Below are positions 11,588 through 17,376 of a stretch of 40,328 bases of DNA, piece after piece. The notes beneath the pieces are model-generated. The model was not told where the DNA came from. It ran no database searches and was given only the letters and a program-made list of their open reading frames with translations. Position 1 is the first letter of the stretch; the number at the start of each line of letters is the position of its first letter. The stretch comes from Candidatus Roizmanbacteria bacterium RIFCSPHIGHO2_02_FULL_37_13b. GTDB lineage: Bacteria > Patescibacteriota > Microgenomatia > UBA1406 > HO2-37-13b. The stretch covers positions 9,961 through 50,288 of the forward strand of contig MFZK01000001.1 of assembly GCA_001789395.1 (NCBI GenBank). Direction: 5' to 3'. The translations under genes were made by a program, and so were the position numbers.

Positions 11588-11616
11588 TTGACAAATGTTT
11601 TTTTATTATTCATAAT
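11588..11616 (+). promoter_or_regulatory. consensus promoter of the clpC-like gene (leaderless)
   Basis: TTGACA (11588-11593), exact 17-nt spacer, CATAAT (11611-11616), 7 nt to the ATG at 11624. This is the best example of the leaderless pattern in the window. Confidence 0.7.
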
Positions 11617-11623
11617 GTTCAAT

Positions 11624-14600
11624 ATGGCAGTATTTGATTTATTTAAAAAGAAAACACCTACAAATCATCAACAACCAACTACTCAATCGGGACAAACAGT
11701 AGTCACACAGACAGAAAGTCAGACTGTCTCGAGTCAACCACAAGCATATTCGGGTATTGGTAACCCTCCAGGTGGTCATGCTTACTCTGGTATCGGAAGC
11801 CCGCCAAGCGGTCAAGCTTATTCAGGCATAGGAAATCCACCTGCTCCGATGGCGACAACGACTACTCAAACTAATACACAAGATTTATCGCCCCAATCAC
11901 CTCCTATAGATAAGTCAAAATCAAATCTATCTACAGATAAACCAACTAATGCAGATACAAAAAAGACCACTACCCCAACAAATAATAATCAGCCACTAGG
12001 ATCAACGATTGATGGAAAAAAACGTGAAGAGTTAGATCTGATGACTCACTTGACACAACGATCAAATCGAGTTTTTCTGACGGCACAAAATAAAGCAAAA
12101 GAACTAAAAGATGACTATGTTGATTCAGAACATCTTCTTCATGGGCTTCTCTCTGATCCAGAAATTTATAAGCTGTTTACCGAAGCTAAAATTCTACCCC
12201 AAATCATTGAGCAAGAATTGGAAAAAATATATAAAAAGGGGGAATCGGCTAAACTACCAGGATTGTCACCACGGATCAAACGTATACTGGATAATTCATT
12301 GGTGGTAGCGCGCAAACTTGGTTTTGATTTCATCTCTCCGGAACATATTTTATTGTCATTATACGAAGAAGGCGAAGGTGCTGGAGCTCGAGTCTTAGCT
12401 AAGCTCGGTGTTAAAAAAGAGGATTTGAATAAAAAAATTATCGGTAAAAAAGAAGGATTGGCTACAAAAGAAGGCACTGGTGAGACAAGGCATCAAAGCG
12501 TGGTTGAACAATACACGGTCGATCTGACTGCTAAAGCAGCACAAGGACTTCTTGATCCCGTCGTTGAAAGATCAGACGTGATTGAAAGAGCGATTCATAT
12601 TCTATCCAGAAGAACTAAAAATAATCCTGCCCTTGTGGGTGAAGCGGGGGTTGGTAAAACAGCTGTGGTTGAAGGATTAGCTCAAAAGATTGTTTCCCGA
12701 TCTGTCCCTGAATCACTTCTTAACAAAAAGGTCCTGCAACTTGATCTTATGAGTATTTTAGCTGGAGCATCACACCGAGGAGAATTTGAAGAACGGATGA
12801 AGAATCTAATCGAAGAGGTCGTCGCTTCAAAAGGACAAATCATATTATTTATTGATGAGATACACAACTTAGTTGGAGCTGGTGCAGGAGGCGAGGGCGC
12901 AATGGATGCATCCAATTTCTTAAAACCATCTCTTGCCCGAGGAGAACTGCAGATAATCGGTGCCACAACATTGACTGAATACCGACGTTATATAGAAAAA
13001 GACCCGGCGCTAGAGCGTCGTTTCCAACCAGTGATAGTTCCTGAACCCAGTGAAGAACAAGCCGTAAAAATGTTGAAAGCACTAAAAAATAAATATGAAG
13101 CTTTCCATCGCGTGAAAATTCCTGATGAGACAATTGAAGCTGCTGTTAAGTTATCAAAAAGATATATTGGCGATAGATTTCTACCTGATAAAGGAGTTGA
13201 TCTCATAGATGAGGCTGCATCAGCTGTCAGACTACCATTAATTTCCCTACCTGAAGAAATTCGGTCAATCGAAGAACGTGTATCTCAATATAAACAAGAG
13301 ATTCAAGAAGCTGAGAAATCCGGTAATCGAGTCAAAGCTAATATTTTAAAAAATAAACTAGAGGAAGTGGATACCCAGTTGAAGGAAAAACAAGAAAGTT
13401 TTAACGTTAGAAAATCTCAGACTACAAGTAGCGTATCGATTCAATCAATTAAAGATATTGTCTCACGATGGACAGGAATACCGGTATCCAAAATAACGGA
13501 ATCGGAGTTGGAGAAGTTAAAGAAGCTTGAAGACATCATGCATCAGCGACTCATCAATCAAGAAATTGCTGTCTCAAGTGTATCTCAAGCAGTACGACGA
13601 GGCCGTGCCGGACTGAAAAGTACTCAAAGACCCATTGGAAGCTTTGTCTTTTTAGGACCAACGGGTGTAGGTAAAACCGAACTTGCTAAAACTTTAGCAG
13701 AAATTCTTTTTGGTCAAGAAGAAGCAATGATTAGATTTGATATGACAGAGTATATGGAGCGTCATGAGGTGGCTAAATTGCTTGGGGCACCACCAGGATA
13801 TGTCGGCTATGAAGAAGGTGGTAAATTAACCGAAGCGGTTAGAAGAAAACCATATTCAGTAGTGTTATTTGATGAGGTAGAAAAAGCGCATCCGGATATT
13901 TTTAATATTCTCTTGCAGATTTTAGACGATGGCCGCCTGACCGATAATAAAGGTCACACAATTTCTTTCAAAAATTCTGTAGTCATCTGTACGTCAAATA
14001 TCGGAACATCGCTTATCCAGGATGAAATAATGAAATCAGGCAAAATGGATATTCAGGAGCCGACAATTCTTTCAACGTATACTTTCTCTCCCCGGGGCAG
14101 AGAAATAATGACCATTATGGGTAAGATTTTTCAGCGAGAATCAAAAGATGTCGGTGAATGGCAAGCATCAATGTTGCTTGATTATTTTTCAGGTCAGAAA
14201 TTGGAGTCTCAAGATGAGAAAGAAGATGACGCACAATTTCCTATTCAAGGATTTGATACCCATGCCATATCAGCAAAAGGAGTTGAATTTATATCCAGCA
14301 AAGATTCAGTATTTTATCGCACCTCAACCACATCAAAGATCTGGAAATTGACTAATCTTATAGACTATTTTAAGGATAATGTCGTCATCAATGCCCTACC
14401 TGATGCTCCCGAACAGCAATTACCTACTAGTAGGTTAAAAACACATGCCTTGAGCCTGGATGAATATGAATATGTAACTTCAAAGGACCGTTACTGGCGT
14501 CGAAAAGAAGGTACGACTGATTGGGAAACAGGCATGTTAAAAGATTATTTTAACGGGCATACCGTCCAAAGTCCAGCTGATGTAAAATCGGCACAACCGG

Positions 14601-15628
14601 TTAAAGAAGAACAAAAAAACGTTGCTAAAGATGAAAAAGCTGCGAAAAAAACGAATCAACCCGAAGTTGGTTTACCCATAAATTATTGGGATGTCCATTC
14701 ATTCTCTCCTGACGGAAAAGAACTTATTATTGTCGGTGACCGACTTTGGATTCGACAGTCGAGCGAAAAATCATGGAAAACACTAATGTTGAAAGATTAC
14801 TTTGGACAAAACTTCCCTCTTGAAAAAGAACTGGATGAAAAGAAAAAAATTGAGAATGAACTCGATAAAAATCAATATCTCAGAACAAAAATCAAGGTTA
14901 TGAATGAGCTTCGTAAATTTTTCCGGCCTGAACTTATTAATCGTTTTGATGAAGTAATCATATTTGAACCTCTTAAATATGAACACATGCTCAAAATTGT
15001 TGAGTTACAATTGAAGGCTCTAAAGAAATTATTAGAAGATCAAAATATCGGATTTAGTTGGACTCCCGCTGCGGCAAAAGAGATAGTTCGCGCTGGATTT
15101 GATCCTTTATACGGAGCTCGACCTCTTAAACGAACCATTCAAAAATTAATTGAAAATCCCCTTTCTAGTTTGATAATAGAGCAGAAAGTCAAAGATTCAG
15201 ACACTGTTATCGTTGATTTTGACGGTGATAATTTTATCTTCAATATCGAAAAGGTAGAACTTGTTGATGTCTCTAAGCTAAACGTAGATCAGACTAAACC
15301 AATCCGATACTTTTGCGAAAAGTGCGGAAATAAATTCGAGACATTAAAATTAAAAAACAGCACGGTCATTTGTTCTAAATGTGCTTCGAACCAAGTTCAA
15401 CAAGTTGCTGCGGAAAAAGAGGAAAAAATGGAGGAACCTACTTCAAAAGGCGTTACTGATAAACCGCTCGAACAAAATCCGCAAGTTGATTTAAAAATAG
15501 CCGATGCGGCAAAAACCGGTCAAGAAAAAAAAGATCAAAAAGAGCAACCTGACAAGACACAAAACGGATTTTTGAAAAAAGATACAGCAGGATTTAGCAG
15601 AAATACTCAATCACCGGTCACCGCCTAA
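11624..15628 (+). CDS. ClpC/ClpB-type AAA+ unfoldase with large repeat insertion in D2
   Basis: 1334 residues; relatives are usually 810-870. Order: disordered N-terminus with three AYSGIGxPP repeats (about 41-73); Clp_N domain (about 140-290); D1 with Walker A GEAGVGKT (339-346) and [12 protein letters not shown]; short middle coiled coil (about 543-594, ClpC-sized rather than ClpB-sized); D2 with Walker A GPTGVGKT (678-685), [10 protein letters not shown] and sensor TSN (790). A ~300-residue insertion follows with four ~40-residue repeats; then D2 resumes at [11 protein letters not shown] (1100). A C-terminal zinc ribbon (CEKC 1231-1234, CSKC 1250-1253) and a charged tail end the protein. 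No clpP is in the window. An upstream in-frame TTG overlaps the -35 box and cannot be the start of this mRNA. Confidence 0.9.
11744..11842 (+). repeat. three tandem 36-bp repeats in the clpC-like gene
   Basis: Two full and one partial copy coding [12 protein letters not shown]-type 12-residue units in a disordered N-terminal region. Third-base differences between copies suggest the peptide is what is kept. Confidence 0.85.
14075..14812 (+). repeat. four ~40-residue protein repeats inserted in ClpC-like D2
   Basis: Copies at 14075-14197, 14258-14380, 14441-14560 and 14693-14812 (residues 818, 879, 940 and 1024 onward). Common pattern: THxxS..G.E.i....d..W.R.....W....LkDYF. The first three start exactly 61 residues apart. 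The copies are well diverged in DNA, so the repeat is old and under protein-level constraint. Confidence 0.85.
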
Positions 15629-15635
15629 ATCAGAC

Positions 15636-16001
15636 ATGAACAACTTTCTCTGTCAAAAATTAATAATTAGTCTTGAGCCTGATCCGACTGGAGGAGCTTC
15701 TTCAGGTCCATTCGAAATTCAAGGACCATTAGTTGGCCCAAACGGGACTCCAATTAATACAATGGCTGATGTCATCAGTATCGTCCTCAAATTCTTGATT
15801 CCCTTTGCAGGAATATTACTTTTTGTATATCTTGTCTGGGGAGGATTTACTCTACTTACTTCCCAAGGTGAACCAGAAAAAATTGGGTCAGGAAAGAAAA
15901 AAATTACTTATGCTATTTTTGGATTTATCCTTTTAGTTTTTTCTTATCTTCTTGTCGGTATAATTTCAAGAATACTAGGAGTGGGATTAGGAATATTCTA
16001 A
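15636..16001 (+). CDS. TrbC/VirB2-like two-helix membrane protein
   Basis: 121 residues. A short polar N-terminus is followed by two long hydrophobic helices (about 46-72 and 90-116) separated by a polar loop TSQGEPEKIGSGKKKITYA. That loop and helix pattern is typical of the TrbC/VirB2 pilin-like family abundant in CPR genomes; VirB2 proteins form conjugative or type IV secretion pili. No other secretion genes are nearby, so function is open. It follows the clpC-like gene by 7 nt and probably shares its transcript. No Shine-Dalgarno and no clear signal peptide are seen. Confidence 0.7.
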   Translation: MNNFLCQKLIISLEPDPTGGASSGPFEIQGPLVGPNGTPINTMADVISIVLKFLIPFAGILLFVYLVWGGFTLLTSQGEPEKIGSGKKKITYAIFGFILLVFSYLLVGIISRILGVGLGIF

Positions 16002-16044: not shown

Positions 16045-17376
16045 ATGTTTCCGGACAAAAAAACTCAAGAAACAATTGTTCTTTCTGTCGGCGGAAGTCT
16101 CCTCGTCCCCAATGGTGGAGTTGATACTTTATTTTTATCGCAACTTAATTCTTTCATTAGAAAACACATAAAAAAAGGTCGAAAATTCTTTATTGTGGTT
16201 GGCGGAGGCAAAACAGCTCGGAGATATCGCGATGCAGGCAAACAAGTTATAGGAGAGTTAACCGCTGACGATTTAGATTGGCTCGGTATTCATGCTACAA
16301 GATTGAATGCCCATCTCCTGAGAACCATATTCCAAGATATCGCTCACCAACGAATTATTGAAAATTATCATAAAAGACTCAGAAATTGGAAAGAATCGGT
16401 CGTCATTGGAGCAGGTTGGCTTCCCGGTCATTCGACAGATTATGATGCCGTTTTATTGGCCAAAGAATATCGCGCTTCAGTACTTATCAATTTAAGTAAT
16501 ATAGATTGGGTCTATGATAAGGATCCTCAAAAACATAAAGATGCTAAACCTATTGAACGAACTACTTGGGAATACTTTGAAAAAATAGTTGGTAAGATCT
16601 GGGAACCTGGGATCAATGCACCATTTGATCCTGTTGCCTCCCAACTCGCAAAAAAAATAGGACTGACAGTCATAATTGCCAATGGAAATAACTTCTCTAA
16701 TTTAGATAATATTTTAAACGGTCACCCTTATAAAGGTACGATGATAACCCCTCTAAAAATTGATGCTGATTTTTTTGACCGGGAATATTTTGAGAGGCAG
16801 AAAGGTGAATACCGACTCGCCTATACGGAATCCACTTTAGGTAGTTTCTTTCAGACAATCGCTAATTGGTATCGTGCATTGTGGATAAAATTCTTTCTTG
16901 ATCCTAAAGATGTTCTGGATGTTGGCTGCGGAACAGGTAAGCTCGTTGGCACATTAAGAAGATTAGGAATTAAAGCATATGGAATAGATATATCAAATTA
17001 CGCATTGGAAAAGGTTAAACCAGAACTTCAACCATTTATAAAAAACGGCGATATTATCAAAATTCCTTTCAAAAGTGAATCATTTGAACTAGTTGTAAGT
17101 TTTGATGTATTGGAGCATTTGGAGAGGTCGAATCTACAACGCGCTATTAAAGAAAGTGCTCGAGTATCAAAAAAATGGATTCTCCATAAAGTCTACACCA
17201 AGGAAAACAAATGGATCACCTTCTTACATGGTCATGACTTGTCACATATGTCAGTATTATCTCATCAGTATTGGTTAAATCTTTTTAAATATATTGACAA
17301 TATCACCGTAGTAAGAAAAGGACTAATAAAATTGCCTTCTTTTTTTGAAAGTATGTTCCTCTTAAAGAAAAAATAA
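16045..17376 (+). CDS. fusion of archaeal-type UMP kinase and SAM-dependent methyltransferase
   Basis: 443 residues. Residues 1 to about 235 form an amino-acid-kinase fold of the archaeal UMP kinase type: IVLSVGGSLLVP, VVGGGKTARRYRDAG, DDLDWLGIHATRLNAHLL, GWLPGHSTDYDAVLLA, NLSNIDWVYDKDP. It should phosphorylate UMP to UDP. Residues about 240-443 form a class I methyltransferase: DVLDVGCGTGKL (about 289-300, SAM motif I), GIDIS, and FDVLEHLE, close to Methyltransf_11. Its substrate is unknown. The reading frame is continuous through the junction. It is followed after 4 nt by recF. Confidence 0.85.
   Translation: MFPDKKTQETIVLSVGGSLLVPNGGVDTLFLSQLNSFIRKHIKKGRKFFIVVGGGKTARRYRDAGKQVIGELTADDLDWLGIHATRLNAHLLRTIFQDIAHQRIIENYHKRLRNWKESVVIGAGWLPGHSTDYDAVLLAKEYRASVLINLSNIDWVYDKDPQKHKDAKPIERTTWEYFEKIVGKIWEPGINAPFDPVASQLAKKIGLTVIIANGNNFSNLDNILNGHPYKGTMITPLKIDADFFDREYFERQKGEYRLAYTESTLGSFFQTIANWYRALWIKFFLDPKDVLDVGCGTGKLVGTLRRLGIKAYGIDISNYALEKVKPELQPFIKNGDIIKIPFKSESFELVVSFDVLEHLERSNLQRAIKESARVSKKWILHKVYTKENKWITFLHGHDLSHMSVLSHQYWLNLFKYIDNITVVRKGLIKLPSFFESMFLLKKK

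Follow-up and report, generated by a model that had tools for sequence, protein, structure and literature searches.

A predicted four-bladed beta-propeller at the ClpP-docking site of a ClpC-like Hsp100 unfoldase from a Roizmanbacteria-type genome

Hsp100 motors are commonly divided into two kinds, one feeding ClpP and the other releasing the chain. The window, which is the whole stretch of 40,328 nucleotides of DNA that was analysed, encodes a ClpC-like Hsp100 of a Roizmanbacteria-type CPR genome, in which an array of repeats interrupts the second AAA+ module (D2). The locus raises the question of what the array is, which part of the motor it stands for, and where a chain would go from there. 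A predicted folded domain at the exact protease dock, in genomes that are mostly without ClpP, turns the fate of the chain at the exit of the motor into a testable question.

The open frame spans positions 11588–15628 of the forward strand, is continuous, and has TTG at 11588 as its first codon. The ATG at 11624 is the likely start codon, favoured because relatives open with the same MAxxDFxKK, and the predicted protein has 1334 residues. The protein contains two Clp_N repeats and the D1 and D2 AAA+ modules characteristic of ClpC, and its best solved relatives are the ClpCs of B. subtilis and S. aureus. The region between D1 and D2 shows no large gaps when aligned to B. subtilis ClpC, which corresponds to a short ClpC-type M-domain. 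The protein is not a ClpB by the NCBIfam ClpB equivalog model, which it matches with 944 bits (cut-off 1232.1), nor by its M-domain, which is short. The Walker motifs of D1 and D2, sensor 1, the arginine finger, and the GAR sensor 2 are intact; the original prediction of intact catalytic motifs on both sides of the array and of a continuous frame is borne out. We name the protein ClpC-like, not ClpC, because the loop with the docking tripeptide is missing. The features of the gene and of its downstream neighbour, all on the forward strand, are as follows.

11624..15628, + strand: ClpC-like Hsp100 gene (Clp_N, AAA, AAA_lid_9, AAA_2, and ClpB_D2-small matches; conserved start)
11744..11842, + strand: N-terminal low-complexity tail with three YSGIG(N/S)PP motifs (sequence; pattern search of genomes)
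12638..12661, + strand: D1 Walker A, GEAGVGKT (motif)
13655..13678, + strand: D2 Walker A, GPTGVGKT (motif)
13859..13876, + strand: D2 Walker B, VVLFDE (motif)
13991..13999, + strand: D2 sensor 1, TSN (motif; invariant across alignments A1 and A2)
14021..14875, + strand: inserted segment of 285 residues standing for ClpC residues 667–681, the ClpP-binding loop (phmmer alignment to B. subtilis ClpC)
14069..14188, + strand: blade 1, ends LLDYF (repeat profile, AlphaFold2 model)
14252..14371, + strand: blade 2, ends LIDYF (repeat profile, AlphaFold2 model)
14372..14434, + strand: linker between blades 2 and 3, 21 residues, fixed length (highest conservation within the insert)
14435..14551, + strand: blade 3, ends LKDYF (repeat profile, AlphaFold2 model)
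14552..14686, + strand: low-complexity linker between blades 3 and 4, 5–145 residues among relatives (pLDDT down to 48)
14687..14803, + strand: blade 4, ends LKDYF (repeat profile, AlphaFold2 model)
14819..14920, + strand: long helix of 34 residues from the propeller back to the arginine-finger segment (H277-310 of the AlphaFold2 model)
14921..14944, + strand: FRPELINR with the D2 arginine finger (motif)
14972..15214, + strand: ClpB_D2-small domain with GAR sensor 2 (family match and motif)
15308..15406, + strand: C-terminal zinc-ribbon-like tail, CEKC...CSKC (PF09723, under cut-off)
15636..16001, + strand: small membrane protein of the T4SS_pilin family (family match; 7-base gap after clpC)

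Counted from the ATG at 11624, TSN is located at residue 790 and FRPELINR at residue 1100, with 307 residues between them, and the four copies of the repeat start at residues 818, 879, 940, and 1024, the first three spaced by 61; all of these values had been predicted exactly. The unit, predicted to be of about 40 residues, is indeed present in four copies, and its length can be refined to 39–41 residues. Any two copies share 12–16 identities and align with scores of 49–79, compared with 9–26 for the best of 1000 shuffles (z 7.4–10.0). The profile of any single copy recovers the positions of the other three in 32 of 32 relatives, and every relative carrying the insert has four copies. A misassembly is ruled out, since dozens of independent MAGs carry the insert in frame. 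A recoded TAG was considered for G198 and rejected, as the aligned gene shows no in-frame stop.

The insert belongs to no sequence family in Pfam, NCBIfam, or the PDB sequences. Neither the 32 insert members searched against the hemopexin family at E up to 10 nor the repeat profile searched against the PDB gave a match, and other propeller models of Pfam gave none above cut-off. A match to WD40 proteins in the PDB with an E of 1.9e-12 consists of many identical 14-residue FSPDG strand matches, worth 2–3 bits per repeat and summed, and membership of WD40 was rejected; the WD40-type class has six or more blades, and all relatives have four copies. The structure of the insert was predicted by AlphaFold2 from alignment A1, which contains the window protein and 31 loci from related genomes. 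The model has a mean pLDDT of 85.4. A value of 90 or more is reached by 189 of its 318 residues, and the blades lie for the most part above 90; the poor regions are mainly the linkers and the ends. Every copy is modelled as four strands and a short helix. Hemopexin-like four-bladed domains are among the best Foldseek matches in the PDB, with TM scores by target length of 0.59–0.73 (MMP12 0.73, gelatinase A 0.71), whereas designed six-bladed propellers, which lead by E-value, superpose poorly (TM 0.38–0.44 by target length). Because the hemopexin-like scores are high and those of the six-bladed designs low, a single closed beta-propeller of four blades is the best reading of the array, with the hemopexin-like fold as the nearest. 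The predicted blade-like character of the repeats is supported by the four four-stranded blades of the model and by the prominence of hemopexin-like folds in the Foldseek list; disorder, set beforehand as evidence against the prediction, did not appear, as a repeat fold was modelled with confidence. When D2 was modelled with the insert in place, the AAA+ core fold was kept, with a TM of 0.82–0.83 to the D2 of ClpB.

The phmmer alignment to B. subtilis ClpC extends to residue 666 of the latter and resumes at residue 682, and the 15 residues 667–681 correspond to 285 residues of the window protein (812–1096). Residues 660–680 of S. aureus ClpC form its ClpP-binding loop, with an AGF tip at residues 671–673, and mutation of the tip abolishes ClpP binding (PMC12521514). 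LGF or VGF is present at the docking site in 19 of 20 Clostridial ClpCs. No hydrophobic-Gly-Phe/Leu docking tripeptide was found between sensor 1 and the arginine finger in the window's lineage, with or without the propeller. The insert-less relatives contain 35–143 residues at the site, a mostly charged linker that is hypervariable. By homology, the propeller would be found where ClpP docks, on the exit face of the D2 ring. The anatomy, a four-bladed propeller for the ClpP dock in a ClpC-like motor, is well supported. The original prediction had placed the array on the ring surface, possibly as an adaptor; its site is the ClpP-docking loop, and so would lie on the exit face and not on the entry side, where MecA, an adaptor of ClpC, acts (PMC12521514).

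Among 48 related loci with readable sequence, the insert is present in 31 and absent from 17. The expectation that the family does not normally carry such an array thus holds for ClpC and ClpB at large and fails for the window's own clade. Across the class, the insert profile has matches in 46 of 373 genomes, almost always within ClpC-like frames of 1100–1660 codons, and the matches fall in families f1–f4, f21, and f25. In a sample of 380 genomes from the phylum, all matches come from genomes of the order itself, apart from an unrelated protein of 257 residues. The insert in ClpC is in this sample a feature of a CPR clade, as had been proposed, and the wide occurrence in ordinary ClpB or ClpC that had been named as telling against this was not observed. 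Among the papers searched, none dealt with the ClpC of Roizmanbacteria or with insertions in the ClpC of Patescibacteria.

The tree of the motor, calculated with the insert left out, needs five changes between presence and absence, two of which are forced by well supported branches, and a wider motor tree needs six. Families f18 and f31 lie outside the group, and their orthologues have neither insert nor docking motif. In the simplest history, the direction of which we infer, the docking loop was lost and the propeller was gained once and then lost several times. The insert is ancient in part of the Microgenomatia and has been lost repeatedly; it is not indispensable, since several lineages lost it with ClpC kept intact. 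The dN/dS of the insert is 0.09 and 0.05 in two close pairs (dS 1.1–1.6, and a dS above 1 makes these figures rough) and 0.12 in another close pair. The insert is under purifying selection.

The linker between blades 2 and 3 (NALPDAPDEQLPT) has a mean pairwise identity of 0.72, compared with 0.49–0.64 for the blades. Its motif is present in 39 of 41 cases and is recognisable in families f4, f21, and f25; the remaining linkers of the insert vary widely, one of them from 5 to 145 residues. In genome G002, a remnant of the gene is preserved as a syntenic, intact frame of 353 codons (L159:1665-2723) near rmlB and an amino-acid kinase gene. In this remnant, Walker A has changed to GPTGPAKT, Walker B is lost, the arginine finger is absent, and there is no D1 or N-domain. 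All four repeats are retained, and the linker between blades 2 and 3 is missing. Because the dead motor keeps the repeats without the linker, the remnant weakly suggests a role for the linker in the working motor and a separate use for the propeller itself.

A few Microgenomatia genomes also encode secreted proteins with the same four-copy repeat. L158:3-2372 is a DUF2961 protein with internal repeats and a dockerin-like tail; L194:715-2883 and L195:1097-3604 have N-terminal repeats and a dockerin-like tail. A search with the L158 domain recovers the ClpC inserts with E down to 2e-15, and L158 and the inserts find each other. The three secreted CPR proteins share the pattern and the four copies with the ClpC insert but do not have the NALPDAPDEQLPT linker. 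Because related four-copy domains are found in a few secreted CPR enzymes, the ClpC propeller looks like a captured domain. The ends of a propeller lie together, which makes its insertion into a loop easy. The protein would be a clear case of a small propeller captured in an AAA+ module with the ATPase core unharmed.

A search for the ClpP family in 80 genomes of the order returned a match of any kind in eight, three of which are convincing (the window genome, G033, and G077), and no convincing ClpP in the other 77. The same search found ClpP in 12 of 14 control genomes, and several of the ClpP-negative genomes are 98–100% complete. Neither HslV nor a proteasome beta subunit was found in any of 12 genomes searched. 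A role of the propeller as a dock for ClpP was rejected, as ClpP is missing from nearly all carriers. The window genome encodes a divergent ClpP-like protein of 176 residues (L196:308-838 on contig 21; PF00574, 76 bits), and ClpP independence is therefore a statement about the lineage.

Of the 48 related loci, 43 contain the T4SS_pilin-family gene that lies downstream of clpC: 27 of the 31 that carry the insert and 16 of the 17 that do not. A link between the propeller and this gene was rejected, as the linkage is equal without the insert; because the gene is linked regardless of the insert, its product probably lies outside the working of the propeller. A fusion of an amino-acid kinase domain with a methyltransferase domain (window positions 16045–17376) is conserved next to clpC, and in most related loci this fusion and a RecF-like gene come next. 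At G000:C16:2250-3920, a frame of about 766 codons encodes another Clp-type AAA+ protein, with 25–38% identity over the ATPase parts; its counterpart L010 has, close to the N-terminus, hydrophobic stretches that resemble membrane-spanning segments.

We regard it as an evenly balanced proposition that the protein is a ClpC-type two-ring Hsp100 unfoldase that acts independently of ClpP and uses propellers on its exit face as a binding platform. In this mechanism, the docking loop on the exit face of D2 would be replaced by the four-bladed propeller on two tethers, the linker after sensor 1 and the long helix that leads into the arginine finger. In a hexamer, presumably a ring of six, the propellers would be positioned around the channel exit or would cap it. 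At the place of ClpP, the platform may bind a partner or else the unfolded chain as it emerges. This arrangement suggests a motor remodelled to do without ClpP, with the unfolded protein handed to something else. More tentatively, and with the balance somewhat against it, such proteins may form a class of ClpP-free Hsp100s in which the dock was swapped for a captured propeller and a six-propeller ring at the exit receives or delivers the chain, possibly regulated by the motors' own YSGIGNPP tails.

The original prediction proposed that the array may recruit substrates or a partner. Binding of either stands as a possible role, and the variable low-complexity tethers (5–145 residues) would give reach to a built-in adaptor that brings substrates to the motor; propellers are, moreover, common recognition domains, and the related domains of secreted enzymes may bind polymers. 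However, a substrate-recruiting adaptor is not our first choice because the array would be on the exit face, whereas adaptors of the MecA type are on the entry side (PMC12521514). The Clp_N domains are also kept, and we consider this role doubtful. That the propeller instead entered, by its adjoining ends, a loop that the loss of ClpP had left free, and persists there as tolerated, passive decoration, would fit the hypervariability of the loop in insert-less relatives (35–143 residues) and the several losses of the insert. This is improbable given the dN/dS of 0.05–0.12, the four copies maintained throughout and persisting even in the dead-motor gene of G002, and the fixed-length linker conserved above the blades.

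Propellers commonly bind short linear peptides, and a peptide is at hand in the YSGIGNPP-type tail, a candidate ligand by its pattern of occurrence, which shared descent could explain. The GIGxP motif is present in 26 of 37 insert-bearing proteins and in 1 of 15 insert-less ones (Fisher p 3e-5, uncorrected for kinship). It is private to the clpC protein, to which 13 of 14 matches of the YSGIGNPP-type pattern in 22 genomes belong; the sole match outside clpC is a chance frame of 28 codons, and the idea of GIGNPP as a tag on many proteins was rejected. The propeller might accordingly bind the tail of its own or of another hexamer, resulting in autoinhibition or head-to-tail stacking. We find such an internal lock or coupling unlikely, as the correlation is confounded by descent, with most insert-less proteins forming one clade; 11 insert-bearing proteins do not have the motif (of these, two carry variants and one is truncated), and it is present in the insert-less L083. 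The motor could also still feed a protease, with the propeller as a dock for an unrecognised or very divergent peptidase. The insert is at the protease-docking site and the window genome has its one divergent ClpP-like gene, but the 77 genomes of 80 with no convincing ClpP, the lack of HslV and proteasome matches in 12, and the lack of a linked peptidase gene among the neighbours checked make this a very improbable arrangement. The ClpP-independent motor with exit-face propellers is the reading that we prefer.

ClpC (MecB) of Bacillota and Actinomycetota shares with the window protein the pair of Clp_N repeats, D1, the short M-domain, and D2 with intact motifs. The window protein differs in that the docking loop with its hydrophobic-Gly-Phe tip is swapped for the 285-residue insert, and in its additional long N- and C-terminal tails. 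The ClpB/Hsp104 disaggregases and ClpIb, the latter being ClpP-free ClpC-like enzymes of Actinomycetota (PMC10149685), resemble the window protein in having no ClpP-docking motif, and an independent unfoldase action is expected. The M-domain of the window protein is of the short ClpC type, unlike the long coiled coil of ClpB, and the loop of ClpIb at the docking site has about 5 residues, whereas the window protein is predicted to have a folded domain there. The hemopexin-like propellers of matrix metalloproteinases, vitronectin, and plant albumins are similar to the model of the insert in having four blades of four strands, with a short helix after each blade, at a sequence identity of about 10%. 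The disulphide that closes hemopexin-like propellers between blades 1 and 4 is impossible in the window insert, which has no cysteine, and, unlike those propellers, that of the window protein sits within an ATPase.
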